From Opitutaceae bacterium EW11 (lineage in GTDB: Bacteria > Verrucomicrobiota > Verrucomicrobiia > Opitutales > Opitutaceae), in contig QAYY01000013.1 of assembly GCA_003054665.1 (NCBI GenBank), forward strand, positions 434,001 to 498,000: a stretch of 64,000 bases of DNA. Reading direction: 5' to 3'. Positions 5,033 to 56,752 of this stretch are shown here, piece after piece. A model generated the notes under the pieces. The model was not told the DNA's origin and searched no databases. It saw only the letters and a program-made list of their open reading frames with translations. Both the position numbers and the translations under genes were made by a program. The stretch's first letter is position 1, and each line of letters starts with the position of its first letter.

Positions 5033-5069
5033 ATACGGACCGGGCGCCGCGAGGCTCCGCGGATGGATC

Positions 5070-31443: not shown

Positions 31444-31499
31444 GCCTCTTCTGGTGAGAAGAAATTGACATGTATGTGAGCCTGTTGCCAGGTGGTGGC

Positions 31500-37064: not shown

Positions 37065-37621
37065 CCTCGGTGCTCTGCGCGGATTCAGAGCCTGCAGCAT
37101 GCTCTGCACGGACCTTGAATTCCGAGCGGGCGCCCTGGCTTTGCCGCACGCGCCGAGAAGCAGGCGGCGGTTAAGCGTGCTTCTGCCGGGCGACCTGGCT
37201 TCGCACATCGGTTTCTCTTCCGACGACGCTATCGTCGAGCTTCTCGTTCGACCGGACGCGGTCATGGAACGAGATCGTGCTCCTGAAAAACAGAGGCATT
37301 AGCGCGTCACTGTGAGGCTATAAGATTCGGATAAATTTCACCCGATCAGGTGATACCGAGGCGGGCAGCGTGTAGCTAGCATGCGACCCGTACCTCCCAG
37401 CCCCACTCTGGTTCAGTCCTCATCACTCCCCCCCGCGAGGCTCCTGAAACTATACCCGCCTGTATTATAGTCCTAGATACAACCGCGCGCATTTGGCGGC
37501 GCTTGGGCGCGCGAAATCCAGCCGCCCCGAACCTTTCACGGGCCTCCCACCGGCTCGTTGTTTCCAGCTCCAGCGAAGAGTCAGTCACCCATACGCACCT
37601 GGACATGTTGCCCCCCATAGC
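37065..37621. promoter_or_regulatory. Long regulatory region upstream of the large TonB-dependent receptor
   Basis: 557 bases without a gene. The first part has a 6-bp stem GCTCTG/CAGAGC at 37,072-37,091 just past the GH2 stop. The segment 37,310-37,380 is clearly AT-richer than its surroundings and carries the palindrome at 37,338. A TATTAT at 37,463-37,468 could be a -10 box, but no good -35 lies at the right distance. The ATG of the receptor is at 37,622. Confidence 0.6.
37338..37353. promoter_or_regulatory. Putative operator, TCACCCG-type palindrome (receptor)
   Basis: Imperfect palindrome TCACCCGATCAGGTGA centred on GATC, 269 bases upstream of the receptor ATG. It matches 13 of 16 positions of the sites at 43,787 and 44,616 when those are read in the same sense. 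Confidence 0.45.
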
Positions 37622-40600
37622 ATGAACACCAACAGACCCAATCCCACCCGCAGCCCGATCAAGCGGCCCGAGGCTCTCGCGCTCGCCGCACTCGTGGCTT
37701 TGGCAGCGCCAAACCTGCCCGCGCAGACCGCCCCTTCCACACCCGATAGCCAGAAGGAAAACGAGGAGCAGACCGTGGAGCTCTCGCCCTTCGAAGTGTT
37801 CGCCCAGAAAGACACCGGCTATGCCGCGACCTCGTCGCTGGCTGGTTCCCGCCTGAACACCAACCTCCGCGATGTCGCGTCGGCGATCTCGGTGGTGACG
37901 GGCGAATTCATGAAGGACACCGGCGCGACGGACCTTCAGCACATCCTGGTCTACCAGACGAGTTCGGAGGCCTCCGGCATCGCCGGCAACTACTACGGCG
38001 CAAACGCCGACGACGGCGGCTACCGCACGCGGATGCTGGTGAATCCCCAGAGCGGGACGCGTGTCCGCGGTTTGAATACCGCCGACCTGACTCGCGACTT
38101 CTTCAGCACCAACATCCCGATGGATTCGTACAACACCGCGCGCGTCGACATCCAGCGCGGCCCGAATTCCATCCTGTTCGGCCTGGGCAGCCCGGCGGGC
38201 ATCATCAACAACACGCTCAAGATGCCCAATATGCGCCGGTACGAGGGCACTGCGGAGGTCCGCGTGGGAAGCTACGGGTCCACGCGCGAAATGCTCGACG
38301 CGGACCTGGCGCTCCTCCCGGGGAAACTCGGCATCCGCATCATCGGGTTGAACGACGACGCGAAATACCGCCAGGACTACACCTTCAACCACGACAAGCG
38401 CATCTACGGCGCCCTTCGCTGGCAGCCCGTGCTCGCCGATCGTGTGTTCACGCAGATCGACGTCACGGGAGAGTCCGGCCGGATCAGCGCGAACCGCCCC
38501 GTCGCGGTCACTCCCGCCGACTTCATCTCGAACTGGTTCAATCCGCTGAACAAGTACCTGATGTACGATCCGCTGACCAGCAACGGCATCCCCCAGGATC
38601 CGAACCGCGTGCAGCATCCCGAACTCTCCGCCTACTTCGCCGGAGCTCCGGCGCGCGATTGGTGGAACGGCTCGCCCGCCACGATCTGGGCGGATCCCGC
38701 GAGCGGCACGATCGGTAGTGGAGGACTGGATGCGTATCGCCAGCGCGATGGCGAGCCCTGGGGCGGCTTGAGCGGCGTGACCAACGTCAACTGGTCGGAA
38801 GGCGGCGTTTGGAACAAGGACCAGGCGAGCTACTACGCCAACAATCCGGCGATCGTGCGCCTGATCCAGCAGTACGAGCAATCGACGGGGAAGACGTTCA
38901 GCGGCTTCGGCTCCAGCCTCTGGCCCACCCAGATGATCCTCGGCGGACCGCTCGCGTTCACCGACAAGACCATGCAGGGGCCGAACAAGCACGAGTGGAA
39001 TAACTTCGATACCGTCAACTTCGCGGTCACGCAGACGTATCTCGACGGACACCTCGGCTTCAACGCCGCGTATGCCCGCGAAAACTACCGTTCGGGCTAC
39101 ACCAATCTGATGGCGACGGATCGCATCACGGTCGACGTGAACGCCTATCTGCGCGACGGATCGGCCAATCCAAACGTGGGCCGGCCGGCGATCTACGGCT
39201 CGAGCAGCGGCAACATGACGACGGAGCGCCGCGAGGCTTATCGAGGGACGGGCTTCTACAAGCTGAACCTCGCCGACTACTTCGGCCGCGACAGCCTGAT
39301 CAGCAAGATCATCGGCGAGCAGACGTTCACCGGCGTGCTGGCGAGCCAGCGCTACGCGAACTTCTCGCGGAATTTCAACCTGTACGCGTGGGACGTTGAC
39401 ACCTACGCCCAGCCGTTCCTCACCGACAAATCGTACTACGCCTGGTGGGGCGTCCACTACATCGGGGACAGCTTGATGAATGTCCCGACATTCGCGGACA
39501 TTCCGGCGTCTTCGATCAAGGGCATTTCGGCTCTGCACAACCCGGGCAGTCAGAACAACGCCCTGGTATGGGACTCCAACGCCAAGACCTGGCACACGGC
39601 CAACGTCAAAATCATCAACTGGCAGTCCGATCTGGATCACCTGTATACAGGCACCTCGCAGGGCTACGACGACACGAAGTCGAAGTCGTTCGTGTGGCAG
39701 GGCAACCTGTTCAACAACGCGGTCGTCCCGCTGTTCGGCTGGCGCAAGGACAGCTACACGCGCTGGGACAAACCGAGCTCGCTGATCCGCGACCAGTACC
39801 AGACGCCGCAACCGTTCAGCGACAAGTGGAACTACACGGGCACGACGCCGCTGACCGCGGAAGAGCAGCGTCGCAGCTGGGGTGTCGTGGTGCACACCAG
39901 CCAGATCCTCGATCTCTTCCACTATCAGCTGCCGAAGGGTATCGACGTCAGCCTGACGTACAACGACTCGAACAGCTTTCGTCCATCGGACGTCGGCACG
40001 GACGTCTACGGCAACAAACTCGCCGCGCCTTCCGGCAACACCAAGGACAAGGGCTTCCTGATCACCGCGCTGGACAACAAATTCTCCCTGCGCATGACGT
40101 GGTTCAAAACCATCCAGAAGAACACGTCGGTCAGCGATCCGTCGGGCATGCTGTACTGGAATAAGGCGGCCGTCGCCCGCACCATGAACGCGATGGAGCA
40201 GGAGACCTGGACCTCCGGCAAATACCGCCAGCAAACGACGCCCGAGTGGCTGGTGAACAAGTGGCTCTTCGGCACGTACGACCAGAACCTCGCCAATACC
40301 CCGCTGCCGTCGGACTGGCGGAATCAGCTGAGCACGCTGTTGACCCAGCCCCTCCGGGTTCGGCGCGCCGCGGTCGCCGGACAGCCCACGTACGTCGCGC
40401 AGGGCACGACGAATCCGGACACCGGAACGCCGTACCTCGCGCCCCCGCTCGATGACGACGAACTCGAATACCGCAAGGCCTGGTTCGCCGCCCGCACGGA
40501 CGCAGAGTGGGCTCGTCCGATCGATCCGGCCTGGTGGCAGGCGATGCAGTTCAAGCAGGACGGCACCACGGATTGGGGCATTTGGGGGCAGAATTCCCCC

Positions 40601-41344
40601 GCGGGTCAGAAGCTGACCAACGACATCGTTTCGAAGGGCGTCGAAATCGAACTCACCGCCAACCCGACGCGCAACTGGCGCCTGACGTTCAATGCCTCCC
40701 GCACGACGGCCGTGCGCGACAATATCCTCAGCGACTGGGCCGCCTTCGTAGGCAAAAACAAGAGCTTCTGGTTCGACGGCTACAACGACACGCCGATCTC
40801 CCAGCTGAATTACTGGAATATCAACGGCTATGCCGATATTCGGCACTGGTACGGCGAGACCACGTATTCGTCCGAGATGGACACGTTTGGCGGACGCATC
40901 ATGAGCGCCGTCTACGGTCCCTACCAGAATCTGCTCGCCGCCAACGGCCAGGCGGTGAACGAACTCCGCAAGTGGCGTTTCAACCTCGTGACAAACTACT
41001 CGTTCGATCACGGGTTCCTGAAAAACGTGAACGTCGGCGGCGCCGTCCGCTGGATGGACAAGGCCGCGATCGGCTTCTATCCGAAGTACAATCCGGACGC
41101 GAATATCTGGGTCACCGACGCCAGCAACCCGATCTACGCTCCGAGCGAGACCAACTACGACCTCTGGATCGGCTACGAGCGCAAGCTCACGAAAAAGATC
41201 ACCTGGGGAATCCAGCTCAACATCCGCGACCTCTTCGCGAAGAGCAGCCTGATTCCGATCATGGCCAATCCGGACGGCACCGTTGCCCAGGTCCGCATCC
41301 CGAGCGACACGACCTGGCAGCTCACGAATACGTTCAAGTTCTGA
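37622..41344 (+). CDS. Large TonB-dependent receptor (Opitutaceae-type)
   Basis: 1,240 residues from ATG at 37,622. Signal peptide (about 1-35, ending LPAQ) and then the short N-terminal segment 'EQTVELSPFEVFAQKDTGYAATSSLAGSRLNTNLRDVASAISVVTGEFM', which serves as TonB box and plug start. The plug includes 'RVDIQRGPNSILFGLGSPAGIINN' (the family's 'GPxSxLxGxxxxGGxIN' element). The rest is the 22-strand barrel, with the terminal Phe of TNTFKF. The barrel is about 400 residues longer than in siderophore receptors, as in carbohydrate-importing types. No SusD gene lies nearby. It likely takes up an oligosaccharide released by the local enzymes. Confidence 0.93.
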   Translation: MNTNRPNPTRSPIKRPEALALAALVALAAPNLPAQTAPSTPDSQKENEEQTVELSPFEVFAQKDTGYAATSSLAGSRLNTNLRDVASAISVVTGEFMKDTGATDLQHILVYQTSSEASGIAGNYYGANADDGGYRTRMLVNPQSGTRVRGLNTADLTRDFFSTNIPMDSYNTARVDIQRGPNSILFGLGSPAGIINNTLKMPNMRRYEGTAEVRVGSYGSTREMLDADLALLPGKLGIRIIGLNDDAKYRQDYTFNHDKRIYGALRWQPVLADRVFTQIDVTGESGRISANRPVAVTPADFISNWFNPLNKYLMYDPLTSNGIPQDPNRVQHPELSAYFAGAPARDWWNGSPATIWADPASGTIGSGGLDAYRQRDGEPWGGLSGVTNVNWSEGGVWNKDQASYYANNPAIVRLIQQYEQSTGKTFSGFGSSLWPTQMILGGPLAFTDKTMQGPNKHEWNNFDTVNFAVTQTYLDGHLGFNAAYARENYRSGYTNLMATDRITVDVNAYLRDGSANPNVGRPAIYGSSSGNMTTERREAYRGTGFYKLNLADYFGRDSLISKIIGEQTFTGVLASQRYANFSRNFNLYAWDVDTYAQPFLTDKSYYAWWGVHYIGDSLMNVPTFADIPASSIKGISALHNPGSQNNALVWDSNAKTWHTANVKIINWQSDLDHLYTGTSQGYDDTKSKSFVWQGNLFNNAVVPLFGWRKDSYTRWDKPSSLIRDQYQTPQPFSDKWNYTGTTPLTAEEQRRSWGVVVHTSQILDLFHYQLPKGIDVSLTYNDSNSFRPSDVGTDVYGNKLAAPSGNTKDKGFLITALDNKFSLRMTWFKTIQKNTSVSDPSGMLYWNKAAVARTMNAMEQETWTSGKYRQQTTPEWLVNKWLFGTYDQNLANTPLPSDWRNQLSTLLTQPLRVRRAAVAGQPTYVAQGTTNPDTGTPYLAPPLDDDELEYRKAWFAARTDAEWARPIDPAWWQAMQFKQDGTTDWGIWGQNSPAGQKLTNDIVSKGVEIELTANPTRNWRLTFNASRTTAVRDNILSDWAAFVGKNKSFWFDGYNDTPISQLNYWNINGYADIRHWYGETTYSSEMDTFGGRIMSAVYGPYQNLLAANGQAVNELRKWRFNLVTNYSFDHGFLKNVNVGGAVRWMDKAAIGFYPKYNPDANIWVTDASNPIYAPSETNYDLWIGYERKLTKKITWGIQLNIRDLFAKSSLIPIMANPDGTVAQVRIPSDTTWQLTNTFKF

Positions 41345-41357
41345 ACCATCCTCCGCA

Positions 41358-41387
41358 ACGCCGGGGATCCATCGCGATGCCCGGCGT
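41358..41387 (+). terminator. Stem-loop after the receptor gene
   Basis: 8-bp perfect stem ACGCCGGG/CCCGGCGT with a 14-base loop, starting 14 bases past the stop codon. A TTTT occurs about 17 bases after it, not directly adjoining, so this is a probable but not classical terminator. Confidence 0.5.
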
Positions 41388-41534
41388 CGGCGGGTGCGGC
41401 GCCGTTTTGAACTTTGGGTCTGGGTTCGCAACGGGTGTGCCGGATGTTCGCGCAAGCGGGCATCCGGTTTTGCGCATTCGGATGGTTGCCATGCGACCGG
41501 CGGCGGTCATCGTTTCGCCCGTCGCAGCCTCGCA

Positions 41535-43682
41535 ATGATCGCCTACCCCTGGTCACGGCCCCGGACCCCGTCTTTCTGGTTATTGTTGGCAAGCCTCACC
41601 GGGCTCGCTCCCTGCCTCTCCGCCACCGGTCCGGATCGGGCGGAGCTAACGACCGCCGCCGAAGTGCGAGCGCTCTCCGTCGACGAGGCGCGCCGCGGCG
41701 TGCCGGTGCACCTGAAGGGCGTCTTTTTGGGGAGCGCAGATCCCGAGGGCATTGCGTTCGTGGTTCAGGACGAGACGGAGGGAATTTATGTCCAGGGCCC
41801 CCCGGAACTCGTCGCGGGGCTCGGGCGCGGCGACCTGCTCGACATCGAGGGGATCACGGACCCGGGCGGCTTTGCGCCGTTTGTCGTGGCCAAAAGCCTA
41901 CATCGCATCGGCAAGGGGCTGATTCCCGAGCCGATCAAGGTCTCGCTCGACGAACTGAACGCCGGTCGGATGGACGCGAAGTGGGTCGAAATCACGGGCA
42001 TCGTCCGAAGTGTCGAGCCGAAGCAGGCAACCGACTCCGCGCCCCCTCCTCCTGGAACGCGTTATACGGCACCCAGCGCGGCGATGCAGTTGCCGGAGCC
42101 GAAGGTGAAGATGAAGCTGGCCTCCGGCAGTGCGCGCGTCGTTGTTGAGCTGAGCGGCGCGCTCAAGCCCGAGGACTGCGTGGACGCCGAAGTTCGGATT
42201 CGGGGACTCTGTTTTAACCTCCACAATCGCAACCGGCAGTTCGTCCGGCCGTTCGTGCAGGTGCCGCGGGGAGTGGAAATGGTCGTCGAGGTGCCCCCGC
42301 CGGCGAAGCCTTTCGACGGGCCGCCTCGGCCGGTGGCGAGCCTGCTGCGTTTCGAGCAGCTGACCGGCAAGCATGGGCATCGGGTGCACATTCGGGGCAC
42401 CGTGATTCACCATCAGCCGGGTTCCACGTTGTGGGTGCGCGATCAGGACTACAGTCTTCGGATCGAAACGGCCCAGGCCGAGGTGCTGCATCCGGGCGAC
42501 GAGGTGGATGTCGCGGGTTTTCCCGCGCGCGGCGAATACAGCGCGGTGCTCGAAGACGGCGTGTTTCGGAAGCGGTCGACGCAACCCGCGCCGCAGCCGA
42601 ACGTGCTGGCGAACATCTCCGATGCCCTGCGCAACGACGCCAATCTCGTCGAACTCGAGGCGCGCGTGTCGGACGTGCGCCGTTTTCCAGACAGCGTCGT
42701 GCTGTTGCTGGACTGGCATCAGACGTCGGTCCGCGCGCAGATGCTCCTCCCGGAAAATGTGCCGGTTCCCGCGGATTGGCAGCCGGGTACCGTTGCGCGC
42801 GTGTCGGGCGTCTGTTCCGTGATCACCGACGGAGCCGGCCCGCTCGGCGGGCTCTGGGAGCCGAGGGCCTTTCAGCTCCTGCTTCGTTCACCGGCGGATT
42901 TTTCTGTGATCCAACCTCCGCCTTGGTGGAACGCCGAGCGGGTGGTGTGGGTGCTGTCCGGATTCCTCGCTCTCGCCGTGTGCGCCGTCGGCGTCGTGAT
43001 GCTGGCTTCAAGGCGGCGGTTGAAAGATCAGGAACACCGTCGAGCGATGGCCGAGGCGGAATTCACGGCGATCTTGAGCGAGCGCAACCGCGTCGCACGA
43101 GAGATCCACGACACGCTGTCGCAGAGCCTCGGCGCGATTTCGGTGCAGCTGGAGTTGGCGCGCACGCATGCCGCTGAGATCAGCGCGCCGGCGCGACACC
43201 ATCTTGGTTCTGCGCACAAGCTGGCCCGAGCGGCCTTGGCCGAAGCGCGCGATTCGATCTGGAACATGCGCTCGCAGGTGCTCGAGAAAGGCGACCTCGG
43301 CGAGGCCCTGGAGGGGATCCTTGTACAGATGACGGAGGATACCGAGGTGAAGCCGAGTGTGCGCGTCGAGGGTGACCGCCGTCGGCTGCCGCCCGTCGTC
43401 GAAAACAACCTTCTTCGCATCGGCCAGGAAGCGATCACCAACGCGTGCAAACACGCAAAACCCACGCGGATTGACGTGGCGCTCGCGTTTGAAGGCCGCA
43501 CCGTCCGGCTAGCCGTCGAAGACGACGGTGTGGGGTTCACCATCGGATCCCAACCCAACGGCAAACGCCGGAGCTTCGGCCTCGTCGGCATCCAGGAACG
43601 CGTGGAACTGCTCGGCGGCAAAGTGGAGATCACAAGCGCCCCTGGCGAAGGTACCCGCGTGGTCGTGGCCGTCCCCGTGTAA
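41535..43682 (+). CDS. NarL-type sensor histidine kinase with periplasmic OB-like domains
   Basis: 715 residues from ATG at 41,535. Signal/anchor at the N-terminus, then about 440 periplasmic residues made of three beta-rich units with a common 'v.l.G.v......lfVqDet.giyv......l..GD.vdv.G' pattern (about 65-140, 275-340 and 375-455), suggestive of OB-fold repeats. A membrane helix lies at 472-497. The kinase core is the HisKA_3 type: His525 in 'AREIHDTLSQSLGAISVQLELA', followed by an ATPase domain with 'RIGQEAITNACKHAKPTRIDV' and 'GRTVRLAVEDDGVGF'. It should signal to the NarL-type regulator at 43,882. Genes around it suggest that it senses a glycan fragment. Confidence 0.9.
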   Translation: MIAYPWSRPRTPSFWLLLASLTGLAPCLSATGPDRAELTTAAEVRALSVDEARRGVPVHLKGVFLGSADPEGIAFVVQDETEGIYVQGPPELVAGLGRGDLLDIEGITDPGGFAPFVVAKSLHRIGKGLIPEPIKVSLDELNAGRMDAKWVEITGIVRSVEPKQATDSAPPPPGTRYTAPSAAMQLPEPKVKMKLASGSARVVVELSGALKPEDCVDAEVRIRGLCFNLHNRNRQFVRPFVQVPRGVEMVVEVPPPAKPFDGPPRPVASLLRFEQLTGKHGHRVHIRGTVIHHQPGSTLWVRDQDYSLRIETAQAEVLHPGDEVDVAGFPARGEYSAVLEDGVFRKRSTQPAPQPNVLANISDALRNDANLVELEARVSDVRRFPDSVVLLLDWHQTSVRAQMLLPENVPVPADWQPGTVARVSGVCSVITDGAGPLGGLWEPRAFQLLLRSPADFSVIQPPPWWNAERVVWVLSGFLALAVCAVGVVMLASRRRLKDQEHRRAMAEAEFTAILSERNRVAREIHDTLSQSLGAISVQLELARTHAAEISAPARHHLGSAHKLARAALAEARDSIWNMRSQVLEKGDLGEALEGILVQMTEDTEVKPSVRVEGDRRRLPPVVENNLLRIGQEAITNACKHAKPTRIDVALAFEGRTVRLAVEDDGVGFTIGSQPNGKRRSFGLVGIQERVELLGGKVEITSAPGEGTRVVVAVPV

Positions 43683-43786
43683 GTCGACGCGACCCCTCGG
43701 CAGGGCGCGGACTCTAACAGTTGGATGCCCTTTGCCTGGTTCGCGCACATGCGCTTCGTAGCGGGCTTGGCATACGTTTCTTGTTT

Positions 43787-43802
43787 TCCCCCGAACGGGT
43801 GA
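43787..43802 (-). promoter_or_regulatory. Putative operator, TCACCCG-type site (regulator gene)
   Basis: Minus-strand copy of TCACCCGTTCGGGGGA, 80 bases upstream of the regulator ATG. With two more bases it is an exact 18-base copy, in opposite orientation, of the site before GH35. Confidence 0.55.
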
Positions 43803-43881
43803 GAGGCACGCGGGGTGGGGCGTGCTAGACTCGACTCGTTCGAGCTCTCCTAGGGTTGATCCGCACGCTCCGACTGCCACC

Positions 43882-44556
43882 ATGAGTTCCGAAAGCGATT
43901 TTACCCCACCGATGATGAGAGTGCCCGAACCCGGAACGAAGATCCGTGTGTTGGTCGTCGACGACCATCCCCCGATGCGAATTGGTCTTGTCGCGCTGAT
44001 CAAAAGTCAGCCGGGGATGGACGTGGTTGCCGAGGCTTCCGACGGCGAAGAGGGGATCGAAGTTTACGAGGATGTGCGGCCTGACGTCGTGCTGATGGAT
44101 CTGCGCATGCCAGGAATGGGCGGTGTGGAAGCCATCCTGGCGATCCGGAAAAAGGATCCGGAGGCGCGCGTAATCGTGCTTTCGACCTACGACATGGATG
44201 AGGACATCCACCGTGCCATCCAATCGGGGGCGAAGTCCTACTTGCTGAAGGACATGTCGATCGAGGAGATCGCGAGCACCATCCGTTCGGTGTATCTGGG
44301 CGATTCGTTGCTGCCGCGCCAAGTGGCTGAGCGCCTCACCGAACGGTCGGAGCGGGAGCAATTGACGGAGCGGGAGCGCGATGTGCTCGAGTCGCTCATC
44401 AAGGGACGCAGCAACAAGGAAATCGCTTCCAGCCTCTGCCTTTCGGAAGACACCGTGAAATCGCACCTGAAGACGCTTTTTGCGAAGCTGCGCGTCCGGG
44501 ATCGCACCGGCGCCGCGGTCGAAGCGATTCGGCACGGGATTGTCCATCTGAAGTAG
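43882..44556 (+). CDS. NarL/FixJ-type response regulator
   Basis: 224 residues from ATG at 43,882; the frame extends upstream but the receiver begins about residue 20. Acidic pair 'VLVVDDHP', phospho-acceptor Asp73 in VVLMDLRMPGMGG and Lys in 'AKSYLLKDMSIEEIAS'. The C-terminal LuxR-type helix-turn-helix is 'LTERERDVLESLIKGRSNKEIASSLCLSEDTVKSHLKTLFAKLRV' (about 160-205). It is the cognate partner of the kinase at 41,535, with 199 bases between them that include a putative operator, so the regulator gene may have its own promoter and be self-regulated. Confidence 0.94.
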   Translation: MSSESDFTPPMMRVPEPGTKIRVLVVDDHPPMRIGLVALIKSQPGMDVVAEASDGEEGIEVYEDVRPDVVLMDLRMPGMGGVEAILAIRKKDPEARVIVLSTYDMDEDIHRAIQSGAKSYLLKDMSIEEIASTIRSVYLGDSLLPRQVAERLTERSEREQLTERERDVLESLIKGRSNKEIASSLCLSEDTVKSHLKTLFAKLRVRDRTGAAVEAIRHGIVHLK

Positions 44557-44615
44557 CCCGGGCCGAAGGGCTGAATCCAGGGGCAGGCGGCCGGATTTCC
44601 TGTCGGCCGAAATTC

Positions 44616-44631
44616 TCACCCGTTCGGGGGA
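44616..44631 (+). promoter_or_regulatory. Putative operator, TCACCCG-type site (GH35)
   Basis: TCACCCGTTCGGGGGA, 138 bases upstream of the chosen GH35 start and 60 bases past the regulator stop codon. The 18-base version TCTCACCCGTTCGGGGGA recurs exactly, on the other strand, before the regulator gene. Confidence 0.55.
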
Positions 44632-44768
44632 TGCGAAAGAACGGCAGGGCTTGTTAGGCTGGTGAAAACCCACCCCGACCGTCTGTGTGCAGTGCCAGGC
44701 GGAGATTCTGCTTTCTGCATGTCGTCCCCCCGGGCGGAGTGGCCTCTCGAAACCCGCACCCCTCGCTC

Positions 44769-47150
44769 GTGAAACGCCACGTTCTGCTCTCGTTGTCCCA
44801 GAAACTCGCCGTGCTCGCCCTTGGCTTAGGACTCTTCCCCGTAGCCGGTCAGCGGATGCAGGCGGCGGAGAAGCCAGCCGCCCACCATTTCGAGATTGGG
44901 GCGAAGGACTTTCTCCTCGACGGAAAACCGATTCAGATCCGCTGCGGCGAGCTGCATGCTCCGCGCGTGCCGCAGGAATACTGGCACCACCGCCTGCGAA
45001 TGCTGAAGGCGATGGGCCTCAACACGGTCTGCGCTTACCTGTTCTGGAACATGCACGAGCCTCGCCCCGGCGAATTCGTCTGGACCGGTGAGGCGGATGC
45101 GGCGGCGTTTTGCCGAGCCGCGCAGGAGGAGGGGCTTTGGGTGATCCTCCGTCCCGGGCCGTACGCCTGTGCCGAGTGGGAGATGGGCGGCTTTCCGTGG
45201 TGGCTGCTCAAATACGACGACATCCAGCTTCGCAGCCGCGATCCGCGGTACATGGGCGCCGTCAAGCGCTACCTCAAGGAGGTTGGCCGGGTGCTCGGGC
45301 CGCTGCAGGTCAGCCGAGGCGGTCCCATTCTGATGGTGCAGGTGGAAAACGAATACGGATTCTACGCCAAGGATGCGGAGTACATGGGCGAGCTTCGCCA
45401 GGCGCTCCTCGACAGCGGATTTGAAGTCCCGCTCTTCGCCTGCAATCCGAAGGAGCACCTCAAGGACGGCTATCGCAGCGATCTTTTCCCCGTGGTGAAC
45501 TTTGGCACCGATCCGGAAGGCGGCTTCAAGGCTCTTCGGGAGATTCTGCCGCAGGGCCCGCTGATGTGCGGCGAGTTCTATCCGGGCTGGTTCGACACCT
45601 GGGGTGCGCCACACCATCTCGGCAATTCTGAACGATACCTGAAGGATCTCGGCTACATGTTGGAGGTGGGCGCTTCCTTCAGCATCTACATGGTCCACGG
45701 CGGCACGACGTTCGGGTTTTTCACCGGTGCAGACCGTCCGTTCAAACCGGATACGTCCAGCTACGACTACGACGCGCCGATCAGCGAGGCAGGGTGGTTG
45801 ACGCCGAAATTCGAGCAGTCCCGTGCGCTCCTCTCGAAATACCTGCAGCCCGGCGAAACGCTTCCGGAGCCGCCCGCGCGCAACCCCGTGATTCACATCG
45901 CTCCCGTGGCTGCGACCGAGGTCGCGCCCGTGTTTGCCAACCTTTCCGCGCCGCTCAGCGATGAAACTCCGAGGACGATGGAAGCGTACGATCAGGCGTA
46001 TGGGTGCATCCTGTACCGGACACAGCTTCCGGCCGGTCCCGCCGCCGCGATCGAGGCCGCGGCCATTCACGACGTAGGGCAGGTCTTTCTCGATGGGAAA
46101 CGCGTCGGATTCACCGACCGCCGCTCCCGCAATTTCCGAGTGGAACTGCCGGAACGCTCGAAACCAGCCACGCTCGACATCCTGGTCGAAGCGATGGGAC
46201 GGGTGAACTTCGGGATCGAGGTCCACGACCGGAAGGGTATTCATGCGCCGGTGACGCTCGCGGTCGAGGGCCAGAAGCCCTCCGAACTGCACGGTTGGCA
46301 GGTTTACCGCCTTCCGCTCGATGCCGGAATGCTGGGCGGCCTGAAATATGAGAAGGCCGCGGCTCACGCCGAAACGACGAGCGGTCCGGCGTTCTGGCGC
46401 GCCACGGTTAAGGTCGAGCGCCCGGGAGACTGTTTCCTGGATATGCGTCCCTGGGGAAAAGGCTTCGTCTGGGTCAACGGCCACAACCTCGGCCGGTACT
46501 GGAACATCGGCCCGCAGCAGACGATGTACGTGCCGGGCCCCTGGCTGAAGGCCGGCGAAAACGAAGTGGTCGTCCTCGACCTGCTCGGGCCTGAGAAGCC
46601 GGAAGTGGCAGCGCTGGAGAAGCCGATCCTCGATCAGCTGCGCCCGAAACTGGATTTCGCCCGCGGAAAACGGCGCGAAGTGAAGCTCAATCCCGACTTC
46701 GGTGCGCCTGCCCAAGCGGGTAGTTTTGCCGCCGGAGGTAATCTCCAGGAGGTCAAGTTCACGAAGCCGGTCAAGGGCCGTTACTTCTGCTTTGAAGCGG
46801 TCAACGCGCAGGACGGAAAGCCGTTTGCCGCCGTTGCCGAGATCTCGCTGCTCGATGCGGCGGGACATCCGCTCAGCGCGGAAGGGTGGACCATCGCGTA
46901 TGTCGACAGCGAGGAACGCGAAAGCGAGGATGGGACCGCCGAGAACGCGATCGACGGCCAGACCGCCAACTTCTGGCACACGCAGTGGGGCGAGGCGCAG
47001 CCGGGCTATCCGCATCGCCTGATCCTGGATCTTGGCCAGAGCCGCGTCGTCGGAGGCTTTACGTACGTTCCGCGTCAGGGCGCTGCAGGCGTCACGGGCC
47101 GGATCAAAGACTACCGCGTCTTCGTCGCCGACGATCTGATACGGCAATAA
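44769..47150 (+). CDS. Exported GH35 beta-galactosidase with C-terminal F5/8-type domain
   Basis: 793 residues using the GTG at 44,769, which begins a signal peptide (VKRHVLLSLSQKLAVLALGLGLFPVAG); no ATG suits better. The GH35 TIM barrel (about 45-360) starts 'GKDFLLDGKPIQIRCGELHAPRVPQEYWHHRL' and has acid/base Glu195 in MVQVENEYGF and nucleophile Glu269 in MCGEFYPGW. A middle beta-rich part (about 400-640) holds the usual jelly-roll domains (GFVWVNGHNLGRYWNIGPQQ). The last ~130 residues form a discoidin/F5-8C-like sugar-binding module ('AENAIDGQTANFWHTQWG'). It should remove terminal beta-galactose from oligosaccharides such as those of xyloglucan or pectin side chains. Confidence 0.94.
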   Translation: MKRHVLLSLSQKLAVLALGLGLFPVAGQRMQAAEKPAAHHFEIGAKDFLLDGKPIQIRCGELHAPRVPQEYWHHRLRMLKAMGLNTVCAYLFWNMHEPRPGEFVWTGEADAAAFCRAAQEEGLWVILRPGPYACAEWEMGGFPWWLLKYDDIQLRSRDPRYMGAVKRYLKEVGRVLGPLQVSRGGPILMVQVENEYGFYAKDAEYMGELRQALLDSGFEVPLFACNPKEHLKDGYRSDLFPVVNFGTDPEGGFKALREILPQGPLMCGEFYPGWFDTWGAPHHLGNSERYLKDLGYMLEVGASFSIYMVHGGTTFGFFTGADRPFKPDTSSYDYDAPISEAGWLTPKFEQSRALLSKYLQPGETLPEPPARNPVIHIAPVAATEVAPVFANLSAPLSDETPRTMEAYDQAYGCILYRTQLPAGPAAAIEAAAIHDVGQVFLDGKRVGFTDRRSRNFRVELPERSKPATLDILVEAMGRVNFGIEVHDRKGIHAPVTLAVEGQKPSELHGWQVYRLPLDAGMLGGLKYEKAAAHAETTSGPAFWRATVKVERPGDCFLDMRPWGKGFVWVNGHNLGRYWNIGPQQTMYVPGPWLKAGENEVVVLDLLGPEKPEVAALEKPILDQLRPKLDFARGKRREVKLNPDFGAPAQAGSFAAGGNLQEVKFTKPVKGRYFCFEAVNAQDGKPFAAVAEISLLDAAGHPLSAEGWTIAYVDSEERESEDGTAENAIDGQTANFWHTQWGEAQPGYPHRLILDLGQSRVVGGFTYVPRQGAAGVTGRIKDYRVFVADDLIRQ

Positions 47151-47198
47151 CGGACCGGGCACCGCAGCCGACGGTTTCCAGGTCCGAAAAACCCGCAG

Positions 47199-47225
47199 GC
47201 GGGTGGGCGGCGCGTCCCTGCGACG
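47199..47225 (+). repeat. Dispersed intergenic repeat, copy 1
   Basis: 27 bases with the core GGCGCGTCCCTGCGACG. The reverse complement of 58,443-58,470 is identical apart from one extra base; 58,526-58,553 is a third, more diverged copy. Confidence 0.65.
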
Positions 47226-47444
47226 CCCAAAACCGTTGCGGGGGACGGTTGAGCGAGCTCTCGCTTGCGGGTGCGTTCGCCGTCCGGGCTCGCTGATTCT
47301 CCGGAGGGGTGAAGCGTCCGGCCACGGAGGGCGCGGGGAAGCCCATCGCCTAGGTTGCACGCCGCGTCGGACGCTCAGACGGCCGCGCCAACTCTACGCT
47401 CGCCGGCCGGGCTCCGCGCGACCGAGCCACCTCGGAATGGCCCT

Positions 47445-47463
47445 TTACATTACTCTAATGTGA
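47445..47463. promoter_or_regulatory. Imperfect palindrome upstream of GH31
   Basis: TTACATTA-CTC-TAATGTGA: 8-base arms with 7 matching positions around a 3-base spacer, in an AT-richer patch about 160 bases before the GH31 start. It could be an operator; no binding family can be named. Confidence 0.35.
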
Positions 47464-47621
47464 AACCGGAATTGCGCGGCGGGTTTTCCGGGGAGCACTG
47501 TGATCGCTCGCCGATTCACTCGGATCCCCTCGGGCCGTACGCTTGCTGATCGTCCGTTTCGATGTGACGTAGACGGTACCCGCCCGAAGGGAAACGCTCC
47601 CCGTTCCCATCCCCTGATCCC

Positions 47622-50531
47622 ATGAAGATTCCGCGCATTCCCTATCTGCGCCTTGCCGCACTGGCGCTCCTGTTTTCTGCCGCAAATGCGGCCCCGACCG
47701 GTCTGGATTCGGCCGGCCAGTTGGCAGTCGCCCCCGAACTCTCCCGAGGTGAGGCGAACTCCTTCGCCTTCGTGAAGCTGGAGAATGGAATCCAGCTCCG
47801 GGCTCGGGGACTCGTGAAGAACATTCTGTTCTATTCGCCGGGGATCGTCCGTGTAACCGCCACGCCGGGGCCGGTCTTCACCCAGCAGCCGAGCTTCACT
47901 GTCGTGCTGAAGCCCGCATCCCTCCGGTTCTCGGTCAAAGAAACGCCCGAACAGGTCGAACTCTCCACGGAGGCTCTTCGGGTGCTCGTGGCAAAGCCGA
48001 CCGGCGCCCTTACGTTCCAGCGCGCCGATGGCACCGTCCTGACCCGCGAAAAGCCCGAACTCCCCGCCGAAATCAAGCAGGTCACGCTTGTGGGAGCGCC
48101 CAGCTACGAGGTGAAGCAATCCTTCAAGCTCGCCGACGACGAGTCGCTGTATGGCCTTGGTCAATACCGCCGGGCGTACATGGATTATCGGGGCGAGGAG
48201 GTCCTTCTCAGTCAGAGCAATATCGGCATCTGCGTGCCGTTCCTCCTCTCCACGCGGCGCTACGGAGTGCTTTGGGACGTGTATTCGAAGAGTCTCTTCA
48301 GGGACGACGCGTCGGGGATGTCGCTTTGGGCCGAGAGCGCGCCGGCCGGCGTCGATTATTACTTGCTCGCGGGCGACACGATGGACGGGGTCATCGCCGC
48401 CTACCGGAATCTCACCGGGGCCGCGCCGATGTACGCCCGGTCTGCCTTCGGCCTCTGGATGAGCAAGGAGCGTTATCAGACGCAGGATCGCCTGATCGAG
48501 GTGGTGAAGAATTTCCGGAAGGACGGCTTCCCTTTGGACAACATCGTTCAGGATTGGCAGTATTGGGGCGGCAACGACGGCACGTGGAGCGGCATGACCT
48601 GGGACAAAACGCGGTATCCCGATCCGGTCGGCATGGCGCGAACGCTGCACGATTCACTCCACGTGAAGCTGATGTGCTCGATCTGGCCGACGGTCGGCAA
48701 TGACACGGAGTTGGCCCACGAACTCGACGCCAAGGGGTTCCGACACGAGCCTCTGCACTGGATTTCGAAAAAGGCGCGTGTGTACGACGCCTACAGCCCG
48801 GAAGCGCGGGCGATCTATTTCAAATATATCAAGAAAGGGCTGTTCGATGTCGGCGTGGATGCCCTTTGGATGGACGGCACCGAAGTGGAGTCGCTGAACG
48901 CCTGCAGCTCGGAGGCGGAGACCGAGAAGGGCATCAAAATCCTCGGGAAAAACGCCGCCGGCGACTACACGCGCTACTACAATACCTACAGTTTGCTGAC
49001 CACGAAGGGCGTGTACGAAGGGCAGCGCGCGACCTCCGACAAACGCGTGTTGACGCTCACTCGGTCCGCCTTCACGGGGCAGCAGCGCTATGCCGCACTA
49101 CCGTGGTCGGGCGATACGTCGGCGAGCTACAAGACGCTCGCGGAGCAGATCTCCGGCGGCCTCAACGTCGGCATGGCCGGACTGCCGTACTGGACGCAGG
49201 ACACCGGCGGTTTCTTCGTTGATATCCCCGGTGGAGAGAGGAATCCGGGGTACCAGGAGCTCTACGCCCGCTGGAACCAGTTCGCGATTTTCAATCCGCT
49301 CTACCGTATCCACGGAACGAGCATCGAACGGGAGCCGTACATCTTTCGCACACTCGCGCCGGAAACGTACGCTTCGTTGCGATCCGCCGCGGATCTCCGC
49401 TATCGGCTGCTCCCGTACATTTACAGCCTTGCCTGGCAGTCCACCGCCAACGGCTACACGATGATGCGCGGTCTCGTCCTGGATTTCCCGGACGATCCCA
49501 AGGTTCGGAAGCTTCAGGAGCAGTTTCTCTTCGGGCCGGCGTTTCTCGTTCATCCAGTCACCCGGGCGATTTATCACCCAATCTCGGAGGCTCCGCAGGA
49601 TGTCGTGCCGGAGGAGCTCTGGCACACGACGGACGGAAAGCCGGGGTTGAAGGTCGATTACTACAGCGGCCGGAACTTCGAGAAACTCGTCGGCACGCGG
49701 ATCGAGCCGAAGGTGGACCAGAGCTGGTCCGAAATCCATGAACCGCCCCCGGGGCTCGACGGCTATGAGAACTTCTCCGCGAAATGGGAGGGCGTGCTCA
49801 CGATTCCCGAAACCGGCGAATACGAAATCGGAGCCGAGGCCGACGACGGCGTGCGACTGTGGCTCGGAGGCGAACTGATCGCCGAAGATTGGTCCGATCA
49901 TGCCCCGCGGTTTGCCGGAAAGCGGGTCAAGCTGGAGAAGGGCCGGCAGGTGCCGGTGAAGATCGAGTATTACCAAGGGGCGGCCGGCCGCAGCCTCCGC
50001 ATGGTATGGAACACGCCGAGCGCGCTCGCGAAGAAGGCGAACCCCGCGATCGACAAGGATGTTGCGACGTATCTTCCCATTGCGGACTGGTACGACTTCT
50101 GGACCAACGAACGCGTGAAGGGCGGCCGGGATGTCGTCAAATCCTGCGCGTTGGCGGATTTCCCGCTCTATGTTCGCGCCGGTTCGATCGTGCCCATGGG
50201 ACCGGCGATGAATTACGCGACCGAGAAGCTCGACGCGCCGCTGGAGATCCGCGTCTACCCGGGAGCGAACGCGAAGTTCGTTCTCTACGAAGACGACAAC
50301 GAGACCTACGCGTATGAAAAAGGCCAGTACGCCACGGTCGAGCTGTCGTGGAACGACGCGGCCCGTACCTTGACGATCGGCGACCGTCGGGGCTCGTTCC
50401 CGCAGCTGGTGAAGGAGCGCGAGCTGAGAATCGTCGTGGCTGGTCCAGGCAAGGGCGTCGGCCCCACTGAGAGCAAATCGGTTGACCAGGTGGTCAAGTA
50501 CACCGGCGCCAAGCGCGTGGTGAAACTGTAG
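47622..50531 (+). CDS. Exported GH31 alpha-xylosidase/alpha-glucosidase with PA14 domain
   Basis: 969 residues with a signal peptide (about 1-23, SAANA). N-terminal beta-sandwich to about 245, then the GH31 barrel: nucleophile Asp418 in DALWMDGTEVE and acid/base Asp498 in PWSGDTSASY, with the family's 'GYGLWMSKERYQTQD'-type segment (here FGLWMSKERYQTQD). A PA14 sugar-binding domain (about 673-798, 'YFEN-like' replaced by VDYYSGRNFEKLVG...DDGVRLWLGGELI) sits after the barrel, followed by the C-terminal beta domains. The MDGTE context, 'VQDWQYWG' and the PA14 module are typical of alpha-xylosidases from xyloglucan loci. It lies 471 bases after GH35 on the same strand. Confidence 0.93.
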   Translation: MKIPRIPYLRLAALALLFSAANAAPTGLDSAGQLAVAPELSRGEANSFAFVKLENGIQLRARGLVKNILFYSPGIVRVTATPGPVFTQQPSFTVVLKPASLRFSVKETPEQVELSTEALRVLVAKPTGALTFQRADGTVLTREKPELPAEIKQVTLVGAPSYEVKQSFKLADDESLYGLGQYRRAYMDYRGEEVLLSQSNIGICVPFLLSTRRYGVLWDVYSKSLFRDDASGMSLWAESAPAGVDYYLLAGDTMDGVIAAYRNLTGAAPMYARSAFGLWMSKERYQTQDRLIEVVKNFRKDGFPLDNIVQDWQYWGGNDGTWSGMTWDKTRYPDPVGMARTLHDSLHVKLMCSIWPTVGNDTELAHELDAKGFRHEPLHWISKKARVYDAYSPEARAIYFKYIKKGLFDVGVDALWMDGTEVESLNACSSEAETEKGIKILGKNAAGDYTRYYNTYSLLTTKGVYEGQRATSDKRVLTLTRSAFTGQQRYAALPWSGDTSASYKTLAEQISGGLNVGMAGLPYWTQDTGGFFVDIPGGERNPGYQELYARWNQFAIFNPLYRIHGTSIEREPYIFRTLAPETYASLRSAADLRYRLLPYIYSLAWQSTANGYTMMRGLVLDFPDDPKVRKLQEQFLFGPAFLVHPVTRAIYHPISEAPQDVVPEELWHTTDGKPGLKVDYYSGRNFEKLVGTRIEPKVDQSWSEIHEPPPGLDGYENFSAKWEGVLTIPETGEYEIGAEADDGVRLWLGGELIAEDWSDHAPRFAGKRVKLEKGRQVPVKIEYYQGAAGRSLRMVWNTPSALAKKANPAIDKDVATYLPIADWYDFWTNERVKGGRDVVKSCALADFPLYVRAGSIVPMGPAMNYATEKLDAPLEIRVYPGANAKFVLYEDDNETYAYEKGQYATVELSWNDAARTLTIGDRRGSFPQLVKERELRIVVAGPGKGVGPTESKSVDQVVKYTGAKRVVKL

Positions 50532-52756: not shown

Positions 52757-52876
52757 CGCCTCCCTTTCTTGGGCAGGAGACCGAAGACCTTCGAGTGTCC
52801 TCGGCCTGGCATCGGCTGGAGTTGTCCGCTTTTCCGCGGGCCGCCGCCTGGGTGCGGTTCCGCAACAGGAGGAGCC

Positions 52877-55800
52877 ATGAAGATGACGACGTGTCGCAGT
52901 TCTGCATTTGCAGCAGTCGCAGCGCTCATGGGCGCGCTGCTTTCGTTGGCAGTTTTTGTTTCCCCCAGTCGGATCTCGGCGGCTGCCGTTGAGACCGCCA
53001 ACGTGATGGCGCCTCTCCGCGTCGGTCCCGGAGACTGGACGGTCTTCGAGCAGCAACTCGATACCGTCAGGCAATACGGAGTCACTGCGGTGAGCGTGGA
53101 TGTTTGGATGGGCGAGGTCGAAGCGTCGGGCGACAACCAGTTCAATTGGTCGTATTACGACACGATCTTCTCCAAGATCCGCCAGCATCACCTGAAGATC
53201 GTCCCCATCCTGTCGTTTCACCAGTGCGGCGGGAACGTGGGCGACCAATGTGATGTGCCGCTTCCCGCCTGGCTCTGGACGAAATACGTCGGGAGAAGCT
53301 ACCGGGGGCTGACGCTCGACGACAAGGACCTGCAGTTCAAGAGCGAGCAGGGCAATTACTGCAAGGAGAGCATCCAGGGGTGGGCCGACGATCTCGTGGC
53401 GAACGAGTACAGCGATTTCGTGACGCACTTCAAAACGCACTTCGCTTCCTACGAGAGCGACTTCATCGAGATCGCGGTTTCCGCCGGACCGAGCGGCGAG
53501 CTGCGCTATCCCTCCTACAACGGTCACGATCAGAACGCCGGTTATCCGACCCGCGGGAGCCTTCAAGCATACTCTCGGCTGGCGATTCTGGATTTCCGCG
53601 AGGCTGTCCTGCGAAAGTACGGATCGCTCACCGGAGTCAATTCGGCCTGGAAGACGGCCCTCGTATCCACCGACCAGATCACCCCGCCGATGAATCGTGA
53701 GCAGTTCTTTCAAAGCGGGGACTATTTTCGCACGCAGTACGGCAGGGACTTCGTCGATTGGTACAACCAGTCGCTGCGCGATCACGGCAAGCGGCTGCTG
53801 ACGAACGTCATTGCCTCTCTCGGCAGTTCTTTCTCGGGGGCGAAGATCAGCTTCAAGATGCCCGGCGTACACTGGACGATGGACCATCCCAACTATCCAC
53901 GCGCCGCCGAGGTGGCCGCGGGGTTGATCCAGACCAGCGTCGATTTCCATTCCGACGCGACAGGTCATGGCTACGCGAACATCGTCGGACTCGCCCGTGA
54001 TCTCGCGGCCTCGGGACGCCCGATTGTCCTTCACTTCACCTGCCTGGAGATGGACGACGACAACAATCCCCCGCAGTACTCACAGGCAAAGAGCCTCGTT
54101 TTTTGGGTGGCCCAGGAGGCGGAGCGACAGGGCGTGACCATCAAGGGCGAAAACGCGTTGGCGGGCGGCGTGCAGTCGGCGCACGGCTGGGACAACCTCG
54201 AGAACGCATTCGCCTATGCGTCGTATCGCGGACTGACGACCTTGCGCATCGGCGAAGTCGCCGGCGGCGTGGGCAAAGACCGATTCAGCGCCTTCATCAA
54301 GCGCTTCTGCGCGCCGGTGTCGTATCCGTCGATGACGATCCGCGGCACGCACAACAGCTGGGCGACTACGCCGATGACGAAGACCGGCACGGTTTGGTCC
54401 GTGACGAACGTGCTTTTCGGCACGAGCACGAACGAGCGGTTCAAGTTCGATGTTTATGGCGACTGGAGCCAAAGCTACGGCGGCAGCGGATTGAGCGGCG
54501 CCGCCGTCCAGGGCGGCCCGGACATCCGCGTCCCGGGAGCCGGACCGTATTCGATCCGTTTCGACGAAGCGTCGCTGTCGTACACAGTCGCCGCGTCCCC
54601 CGCGTCGGATACCTGGTATTTCCGGGGAACTCCGAATCATTGGGGCACTTCGCCCATGACCCGAGTCGGCGGTGGAGACGTGTTCACCCTCACGACGGAT
54701 TTCGCCCGCGAAGATCCCAATCCCCGGTTCAAAATCGATCACTTCGGCAACTGGACGGAAAGCTATCCGAGCGAGGACGTGCAGGTGATCGACTGCAGCC
54801 GGTATGAAATCCGGTTCAACCGCGCGACGAAGAAGGTGGAGGCAAAACGTCTCGGCGACGTCACTACGGGCACGTGCGCGTCCTGCCCGGTGGCGCCGGG
54901 GGCGACCTACAGCTCGGCAGCGACGACCTTCGCTCTCTGGTCGCCCGATACGCCCAACGTCCAGCTCTGGCTCGAAGGCACGCTGTACCCGATGGCCCGC
55001 GTGGCGGACGCCGGAGGCTACACGGATCTCTATGCCGTGACGGTGCCGGGAGACCACCACCTGAAACGTTACCAGTTCCGGGTCGACAACCGCGTCGCTC
55101 GCGACCCATACGGCGTGATGGTGCAGCCGGCGAGCGACTACAACGTGGTGGTGAATCTCGCGCTCACGGATCCGGCCGGTGGCTGGGCTCCGCGTCCGGC
55201 GCTGAAAGAGCGGGAGGACGCGGTGATCTATGAGATTCATATCCGCGATTTCACGATCGACGCCTCGGCGGGCGTCGCTCCCGCGCTGCGCGGGAAATAC
55301 CTCGGCATGGTTCAGCCGGGAACGTCGTGCAACGGGAAGGCCACCGGTCTCGACCACCTGAAAGAGATGGGTGTGACGCACGTGCAGATCCTGCCGTTCT
55401 TCGACTTCCAGGCGTGTTCGGTCAGCGAACCGCCGACCTGCTATACCTGGGGCTACGATCCCATCAATTTCAACGTCCCGGAGGAGCGCTATTCGGTTTC
55501 CGGCGATCCGCTCGAGCGCATCCGAGAGTTGAAAACGATGATCAACCAACTCCACAAGGCGGGCATCCGGGTGATCATGGACGTGGTGTACAATCACACC
55601 GCGCAGATAGCCGGACGGGAAACGACGTTTTCTCCCATCACGCCGCGATATTTCTTTCCCAACGACCTCTCCGGCACGGGCAATGCGGTCGACGACCGGA
55701 ATCCGATGGTCGCACGATTCATTCGCGATTCGCTCGAGTATTGGGTGAAAGAATACCACGTCGACGGCTTCCGTTTCGACCTGATGGGAATCTTCACGTA

Positions 55801-56752
55801 CGCGGACGTGGGCAACTGGGCCCGGTACCTCAACGCCAAGTACCCGGACGCCACGCTGCTGGTTTACGGCGAGCCATGGCGTTGTTGCGGGGACGATCCC
55901 TACGACGGCGAGCGGGTCCGCCTGGGGACGGTGGGCAGAATCGTCGATGCCCAGGTCGGTGCGTTCAACAGCCAGTTCCGCGAGGCGCTTAAAGGGGAGA
56001 ACAAATCCGGGACGGGCGGCGGCTACATCTTCAACCAACGCTCGGATCTCTTCGCCATCCGGGCCGGCAGCCGCGGAGCCATCCGCTTCACCTACGATCC
56101 CTCGTCGGTTTTGCCGAATCAGTGGGACCAGATGTTCGCCAACGACCCGGCCCAGGACATCAACTACGTTTCGGCCCACGATGATCTGGTGCTGCGGGAC
56201 AAGATTCTCGCCTGGGCGAAAGTGAACGGAAGGCTGGGCGACGCGGCTTATTTGGAGCGAATCCAGCGTTTCGCTGCCGGCATCATTCTCACCTCCCAGG
56301 GCGTGCCGTTTCTGCACGGCGGCGACGAGATGCTCCGGGAGAAAGGAGGCTCGCCGAACAGCTACGACCAGCCGGATTCGGTGAACGCGGTGCGCTGGCA
56401 ATGGAAGAGCGACCACTCTGAATCCGTGGCGTATCACAAGAAACTGATCGCGCTGCGGCGGCAGCACCCCGGTTTCCGGCTCACGAGCTGGGACAAGATC
56501 AACACGTCGGTGAGCACCAACGAGACGCTCCGCAACGGCGTTGTGGTCACGACCATCAACGGCGCAGGTGCGGGCGACTCCTGGCACGACATCATCGTGA
56601 TCTACAATTCTGCGGACAACTACGACTACCCGCTTCCCGACGGCACCTGGTTCGTGGCGCTCGAGAAAAGCGATCCCAATGCCGGGGCGGACCGTCCCGT
56701 CAGCGGTAAGGTCACCGCCGAGGGAACGGCCGTTACGGTCCTCCATCGCTGA
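52877..56752 (+). CDS. Bifunctional GH14 beta-amylase - GH13 pullulanase-type enzyme
   Basis: 1,291 residues from ATG at 52,877 with AGGAGG four bases upstream. Signal peptide about 1-37. Residues ~41-470 are a full GH14 beta-amylase: 'AVSVDVWMGEVEASGDNQFNWSYYD', 'IVPILSFHQCGGNVGDQCD' and the catalytic Glu208 in GPSGELRYPSY and Glu425 in IKGENALAGG. Two starch-binding-like beta modules follow (~483-571 and 576-660; 'RGTxNxWxTxPM...RFKxDxxGxWxESY'). Then a CBM48-like module (~680-763) and a GH13 domain (~779-1230) with 'YTWGYDPINFNVPEERYS', Asp968 in GFRFDLMGI, Glu999 in VYGEPW and His-Asp1102 in SAHDD. These pullulanase-type regions imply alpha-1,6 debranching. The enzyme should cut starch or glycogen to maltose without a separate debranching enzyme. 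Confidence 0.93.
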   Translation: MKMTTCRSSAFAAVAALMGALLSLAVFVSPSRISAAAVETANVMAPLRVGPGDWTVFEQQLDTVRQYGVTAVSVDVWMGEVEASGDNQFNWSYYDTIFSKIRQHHLKIVPILSFHQCGGNVGDQCDVPLPAWLWTKYVGRSYRGLTLDDKDLQFKSEQGNYCKESIQGWADDLVANEYSDFVTHFKTHFASYESDFIEIAVSAGPSGELRYPSYNGHDQNAGYPTRGSLQAYSRLAILDFREAVLRKYGSLTGVNSAWKTALVSTDQITPPMNREQFFQSGDYFRTQYGRDFVDWYNQSLRDHGKRLLTNVIASLGSSFSGAKISFKMPGVHWTMDHPNYPRAAEVAAGLIQTSVDFHSDATGHGYANIVGLARDLAASGRPIVLHFTCLEMDDDNNPPQYSQAKSLVFWVAQEAERQGVTIKGENALAGGVQSAHGWDNLENAFAYASYRGLTTLRIGEVAGGVGKDRFSAFIKRFCAPVSYPSMTIRGTHNSWATTPMTKTGTVWSVTNVLFGTSTNERFKFDVYGDWSQSYGGSGLSGAAVQGGPDIRVPGAGPYSIRFDEASLSYTVAASPASDTWYFRGTPNHWGTSPMTRVGGGDVFTLTTDFAREDPNPRFKIDHFGNWTESYPSEDVQVIDCSRYEIRFNRATKKVEAKRLGDVTTGTCASCPVAPGATYSSAATTFALWSPDTPNVQLWLEGTLYPMARVADAGGYTDLYAVTVPGDHHLKRYQFRVDNRVARDPYGVMVQPASDYNVVVNLALTDPAGGWAPRPALKEREDAVIYEIHIRDFTIDASAGVAPALRGKYLGMVQPGTSCNGKATGLDHLKEMGVTHVQILPFFDFQACSVSEPPTCYTWGYDPINFNVPEERYSVSGDPLERIRELKTMINQLHKAGIRVIMDVVYNHTAQIAGRETTFSPITPRYFFPNDLSGTGNAVDDRNPMVARFIRDSLEYWVKEYHVDGFRFDLMGIFTYADVGNWARYLNAKYPDATLLVYGEPWRCCGDDPYDGERVRLGTVGRIVDAQVGAFNSQFREALKGENKSGTGGGYIFNQRSDLFAIRAGSRGAIRFTYDPSSVLPNQWDQMFANDPAQDINYVSAHDDLVLRDKILAWAKVNGRLGDAAYLERIQRFAAGIILTSQGVPFLHGGDEMLREKGGSPNSYDQPDSVNAVRWQWKSDHSESVAYHKKLIALRRQHPGFRLTSWDKINTSVSTNETLRNGVVVTTINGAGAGDSWHDIIVIYNSADNYDYPLPDGTWFVALEKSDPNAGADRPVSGKVTAEGTAVTVLHR

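Follow-up and report, generated by a model that had tools for sequence, protein, structure and literature searches.

Does a single bacterial gene encode both a beta-amylase and a debranching enzyme in one chain, and if so, is the join between them genuine? The question is raised by a gene in a 64,000-nucleotide stretch of Opitutaceae bacterium EW11 (GCA_003054665.1, contig QAYY01000013.1, positions 434,001 to 498,000; hereafter the window), which a sequence-only reading took to specify a glycoside hydrolase family 14 (GH14) beta-amylase and a family 13 (GH13) pullulanase-type enzyme. We found that the GH14-pullulanase join is real and conserved. We predict, at a probability of about 0.82, that the product is an exported two-enzyme protein that would turn branched alpha-glucan (amylopectin, glycogen, and their dextrins) mainly into maltose.

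The fused gene and its conserved join

The fused gene lies at 52877..56752 on the plus strand and encodes a protein of 1,291 amino acids (P0001). Translation of the window gave 1,291 codons without a stop, as expected of one uninterrupted frame, and a search of the source genome recovered the frame again, with 0 stops and about 105 kb from the nearer end of a 596-kb contig. The ribosome binding site is AGGAGG at 52867..52872 (+), 4 bases ahead of the ATG. Pfam and the module models confirmed the order GH14, two modules, carbohydrate-binding module family 48 (CBM48), and GH13, and Glu208, Glu425, Asp968, Glu999, Asp1102, and the motif YTWGYDP were all found at the positions named by the sequence-only reading. 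Residues ~1 to 36 (52877..52984, +), judged by eye, resemble a signal peptide, with a hydrophobic core and an A-x-A before the cut, and suggest that the fused protein is exported. The description of the protein as secreted is based on this signal-peptide-like start, and an exit from the periplasm goes beyond it. A sigma-70 scan gave 1 site versus 0.7 expected, none close to the start of the fused gene, and of 11 terminator-like sites (4.1 expected), none was on the plus strand directly behind its stop codon.

The GH14 domain (residues 43 to 462; 53003..54262, +) matched PF01373 with 355.3 bits (E 5.7e-106) against a curated cut-off of 27 and covered profile positions 2 to 390 of 402. Sequence matches of this half in the PDB were the beta-amylases 1b90 (E 3.4e-78) and 3voc (E 1.1e-77). 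Alignment to 1b90 and 3voc showed that the domain retains both catalytic glutamates, Glu208 (53498-53500, +) and Glu425 (54149-54151, +), together with the HQCGGNVGD loop and the FTCLEM stretch of the Bacillus cereus beta-amylase. The available text of PMC8449922 gives HxCGGNVGD as the loop motif of GH14 beta-amylases, and the domain thus has both the loop and the two glutamates of that family. We infer that the GH14 half releases maltose from nonreducing ends.

At the other end of the chain, the GH13 catalytic region (residues ~779 to 1202; 55211..56482, +) matched PF00128 with 52.7 bits (cut-off, 22) and carries the catalytic triad Asp968 (55778-55780, +), Glu999 (55871-55873, +), and Asp1102 (56180-56182, +), which is invariant in all six aligned pullulanase-type domains. 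Its best PDB sequence match was the type I pullulanase 2wan (E 1.7e-98), and the GlgX structure 7u39 (E 3.9e-43) and isoamylase 1bf2 (E 4e-30) were far weaker. A pullulanase C-terminal all-beta domain (pulA_all-beta, PF21653; residues 1212 to 1262; 56510..56662, +) follows, at 27.1 bits against a cut-off of 26.7. The CBM48 call ahead of the catalytic region (residues 675 to 739; 54899..55093, +) is marginal, as PF02922 passes its cut-off (24.3 bits versus 22.4) yet no single stretch passes E 0.001.

The same architecture is present in a second organism. A frame of 1,307 amino acids on a 10.9-kb contig (CAIODU010000266.1) of the uncultured Methylococcaceae metagenome-assembled genome LinL3_bin-0520, locus L040, has the identical order of all five parts and is 65.8% identical to the window protein over 1,299 columns (tblastn). 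By part, the identity is 69.8% for GH14, 59.6% for the first module (M1), 57.1% for the second (M2), 64.9% for CBM48, 69.9% for GH13, and 23.7% for the signal region. The fractions of codons differing at positions 1/2/3 are 0.23/0.21/0.58 for GH14, 0.30/0.25/0.58 for M1, 0.30/0.25/0.53 for M2, 0.26/0.16/0.71 for CBM48, 0.25/0.16/0.58 for GH13, and 0.58/0.55/0.82 for the signal region. Because differences in the five domains are concentrated at position 3, we conclude that all five, but not the signal region, are under purifying selection in one frame. The guanine-plus-cytosine (GC) contents of the two fused genes are 62% and 52%.

These results bear directly on whether an assembly or frameshift artefact joined two genes. 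Such an artefact would agree with the whole-protein search of the 150 genomes of the window's family, in which only the source genome matched at E ≤ 1e-60. It does not agree with L040, where a single frame carries the parts in this same order, or with the position of the gene deep inside its contig. The short L040 contig may be misbinned, but even then it would be the same gene assembled independently. An independent full-length homologue with the same order excludes chance plus assembly error in practice, and we consider the chance of an artefact negligible. A missing base or bad join, which the sequence-only reading had named as what could undo its claim, is removed by this one-frame homologue.

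Between the two enzymes lie M1 (residues ~485 to 575; 54329..54601, +) and M2 (residues ~579 to 660; 54611..54856, +), two copies of a single module type that matched one in-house profile at E 2.4e-30 and 9.9e-42, respectively, the profile having been built in this analysis from these modules among others. Both fell below every Pfam curated cut-off tried (CBM53, 21.1 versus 27.6; X25_BaPul_like, 13.8 versus 27 on the module stretch), the SusF_SusE family gave 16.3 bits versus a cut-off of 27.5 on the L040 modules, and the best match of the module profile to PDB sequences was AMPK beta at E 0.33. An AlphaFold2 model of the modules from seven rows had a mean predicted local distance difference test score (pLDDT) of 87.5 and a predicted template modeling score of 0.64. 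With this model, Foldseek returned only two matches at E ≤ 0.001, 7rpy (X25-2 of Ruminococcus bromii Sca5) and 4fe9 (SusF). VIA-align matched it to Bacteroides SusF (4fe9; Z 13.0, 171 residues aligned over two domains, root mean square deviation [rmsd] 15.0), to a domain of the Bacillus acidopullulyticus pullulanase (2wan; Z 10.7, rmsd 2.1), and to 4fem (Z 9.9, rmsd 2.2) and 4fch (Z 9.7; solved with maltoheptaose) of the Bacteroides SusE/SusF set. Because of these structural matches, we place the modules in the SusE/SusF/X25 starch-binding fold, M1 being SusE/SusF-like and M2 X25/SusF-like. By the tests made they lie outside the named CBM families, and starch binding itself is predicted. The two starch-binding-like modules noticed at first reading are thus real.

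How the protein may work

In the action we propose, the GH14 half would take maltose off nonreducing ends and stall 2 to 3 glucoses short of a branch, leaving a beta-limit dextrin. The pullulanase-type domain would then cut the alpha-1,6 bond under the short stub, yielding maltose or maltotriose and a fresh linear chain for GH14, while M1, M2, and CBM48 would keep the two active sites on a common substrate. According to the available text of PMC3443597, the 2- to 3-glucose side chains left on limit dextrins are beyond the reach of isoamylase, beta-limit dextrins are open to attack by pullulanases, and the use of pullulanase alongside beta-amylase can increase the maltose yield by ~20 to 25%. 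A pullulanase-type enzyme rather than an isoamylase is the fitting partner because isoamylases cannot remove such stubs. Debranching where beta-amylase stalls agrees with what is available of the same source; the full conversion to maltose once claimed for the protein is too strong because 2- or 3-glucose stubs would leave some maltotriose, and maltose plus some maltotriose are the expected products.

A shared task for the two activities is supported by divergent neighbor genes in two other genomes. In Saccharospirillum salsuginis (L041), two GH14 genes adjoin, and are divergent from, a modules-CBM48-pullulanase gene, and in L091 (G1031), one GH14 gene is divergent from such a gene. We predict that each half is active and that the two cooperate in one chain.

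Several observations weigh against this proposal. The NCBIfam type I pullulanase model TIGR02104 aligned to residues 675 to 1265 with 476.4 bits (E 9.8e-143), below its cut-off of 504.5, which was also missed by L040 (480.3 bits) and by a related alpha-amylase/pullulanase frame, L088 (503.6 bits). YNWGYDP is the diagnostic motif of type I pullulanases, and the window protein deviates with YTWGYDP, from residue 856 (55442-55462, +). Three of four aligned relatives without GH14 (L041, L088, and L091) have YNWGYDP, and the fourth reads YNWGYMT. Residue 78 of the GH14 domain is Met where L010, L040, and 1b90 have Trp. Export past the inner membrane is a prediction, and an enzyme confined to the periplasm would be out of reach of intact starch. 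The neighboring genes (GH2, GH35, and GH9) are also unlike a starch locus, save for a GH31 that is possibly an alpha-glucosidase.

The first two of these points concern the GH13 half. L040 also has YTWGYDP, and this motif is a change common to both GH14-fused proteins and thus to the fusion lineage. The GH13 half might be an amylopullulanase or another alpha-1,4/1,6 enzyme, with products that include mixed maltodextrins; the score below the equivalog cut-off and the difficulty of reading GH13 specificity from sequence leave room for this, but the nearest solved relatives are type I pullulanases, and we regard such an enzyme as unlikely. The GH13 half probably works like a type I pullulanase without being filed as a member of TIGR02104.

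The motif, Met78, and the low TIGR02104 score could also be signs that one half has decayed or serves binding while only the other is active. All five catalytic residues are intact, however, and the two halves are equally conserved, with few differences at the first two codon positions, making a single active half quite improbable.

A third alternative accepts both activities and holds that the exported chain is then split to give a free beta-amylase and a free pullulanase, the fusion only securing equal amounts. The precursor of the Paenibacillus beta/alpha-amylase is cleaved, the structure of its GH14 domain was solved with a chain of 419 residues (3voc), and L041 and L091 encode the corresponding activities in separate genes. 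The alignment of the window protein with L040 shows short linkers only, with no long flexible stretch, and several substrate-binding modules lie between the halves, which speaks against such a polyprotein; we consider it unlikely and favor the uncut two-enzyme protein.

Rarity and origin of the fusion

The fusion was seen in only two species, of two phyla, the Methylococcaceae locus having been found by scanning a genome-contig collection with two narrow GH14 peptide patterns (63 stretches, nine loci), a scan that may have missed further fusions. With the whole protein as the query, matches were found in 4 of 369 genomes (E ≤ 1e-80) of the class to which the Methylococcaceae genome belongs, 6 of 201 in its order, 6 of 194 in the Saccharospirillum order, and 6 of 40 in the Contendobacter order; the central genome is counted in all of them, and some genomes belong to more than one set. 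Among the frames fetched from those genomes, GH14 and this pullulanase occurred together only in the Methylococcaceae genome.

In the window's phylum, 22 of the 387 genomes passed the cut-off for GH14 itself; 4 of them, including the source genome, had strong matches that spanned 300 or more of the 402 positions, and the remaining matches were weak and partial (best E, 4.7e-10). At E ≤ 1e-30, the class of Clostridium ganghwense yielded GH14 in 3 of 291 genomes and the class of S. salsuginis in 1 of 312, central genomes counted. We rejected a native gene of the host phylum, given the 4 strong GH14 genomes in the phylum and the source genome as the only match in its family. A search of plasmid records found no GH14; the most that any contained was modules plus pullulanase, in Photobacterium, and none of the 697 records that matched covered 80% of the query.

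The window protein and L040 were sisters in both a GH14 tree (19 rows; support, 100/99) and a GH13 tree (14 rows; 98/100), in which long branches carry a warning. The rows were hand-picked, leaving out duplicate loci, truncated frames, the L011 GH14, the cut pullulanase frames L069 and L071, and distant GlgX/TreZ-type GH13 proteins. Because of the sister placement in both trees, the simplest account would be a single fusion event before the two lineages split, followed by transfer between phyla, and the equal distance of both halves fits.

Related frames elsewhere combine the same kinds of domains differently. A Contendobacter frame of 1,565 amino acids (L045; 8886-13580, +) joins GH14, three SusE/X25-like modules, CHB_HEX_C, and GH57 and is a second unusual beta-amylase fusion. 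In the Contendobacter order, L088 (G1263; 3248-7108, +; 1,287 amino acids) joins a GH13 alpha-amylase, a module, CBM48, and the same pullulanase, the GH13 part of which is 58.5% identical to that of the window. L089 (G1289; 5204-8605, −; 1,134 amino acids) carries GH14, a GH13 domain nearest the TreZ and GlgB models (under their cut-offs), and an alpha-amylase C-terminal domain. In L098 (3864-6836, +), a frame of 991 amino acids ends with GH14, and its first ~530 residues had no Pfam match at E 0.01. Behind the fused gene of L040 comes a further frame, which contains three modules and a GH13 domain of alpha-amylase type; the window has no such frame.

We asked how the modules themselves are related with a tree of 16 modules, in which 82 columns resolve poorly and 7 of 13 inner branches are open. 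M1 grouped with the CBM48-side modules of L039 and L088 (99/98). M2 fell in the other large group, unresolved at the base near the last modules of L045 and of the L040 alpha-amylase frame, and the CBM48-side modules of L041 and L091 fell in M2's large group as well. We rejected an origin by simple read-through of two neighboring genes, since the neighbors in L041 and L091 are divergent rather than tandem and the tree pairs neither M1 with GH14 genes nor M2 with pullulanase genes. Recombination among modules looks likelier, and the binding modules may be the connector around which catalytic domains are exchanged. Only tentatively do we extend this to a self-contained machine that outperforms the mixed enzymes and moved between phyla as a unit, within a wider module-sharing family of GH14, GH57, alpha-amylase, and pullulanase; we would not expect all of this to hold.

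Upstream of the fused gene, a carbohydrate-enzyme cluster at 34650-50531 encodes GH2, a TonB-plug receptor, a histidine kinase, a LuxR-type regulator, GH35, and GH31 with PA14; after the fused gene come GH9 and another TonB receptor. An IS200-like (Y1) transposase-type protein is encoded at 31470-32480 (+), ~20 kb upstream. An open frame of 888 amino acids (54080-56746, −) is antisense to most of the second half of the fused gene and is likely a by-product of high GC content.

Comparison with known systems

The nearest GH14 precedent is the Paenibacillus beta/alpha-amylase, which has GH14 at the N terminus of its precursor and an alpha-amylase as its second catalytic domain. The GH14 domains are homologous, 3voc being that of the Paenibacillus enzyme. 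The window protein falls outside this type of precursor: its second domain is nearest to pullulanases rather than alpha-amylases and is preceded by SusE/X25-like modules and CBM48. For beta-amylases of Paenibacillus, the available text of PMC7410926 names CBM25 as the module. The alpha-amylase/pullulanase protein described there likewise joins an amylase to a pullulanase with binding modules between them; it differs, as far as that text goes, in having alpha-amylase first and CBM41 modules, where the window protein has GH14 and SusE/X25-like modules. The type I pullulanases BaPul of B. acidopullulyticus (2wan) and AmyX (2e8y) share the CBM48-GH13 core and catalytic triad, and BaPul also carries a domain with the same fold as M2. 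Unlike the window protein, which scores under the NCBIfam cut-off, they have no second catalytic domain.

A natural GH14-pullulanase protein was not found described in the open-access full-text literature, in a search to which CAZy and subscription papers were external, and the available parts of PMC12093494, PMC11046441, and PMC3124978 do not mention such a fusion. The earlier statement that no fusion of this order is well described is in line with this open-access result. In industrial maltose production, beta-amylase and pullulanase are added together, according to the available parts of PMC3443597 and PMC8449922. Here nature has combined these two partners in a single protein that occurs in two phyla and is under selection. 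The fusion idea is biochemically sensible rather than strange, yet the fusion is conserved, rare, and directly testable. It offers a direct test of whether physical linkage aids the cooperation of exo-attack and debranching, and as an enzyme it is a candidate for making maltose. How amylolytic enzymes are recombined around shared binding modules can be seen in the related shufflings. Amylases with two catalytic domains are already known, and to these the pairing of GH14 with a pullulanase adds a variant that was not found in the open-access literature.

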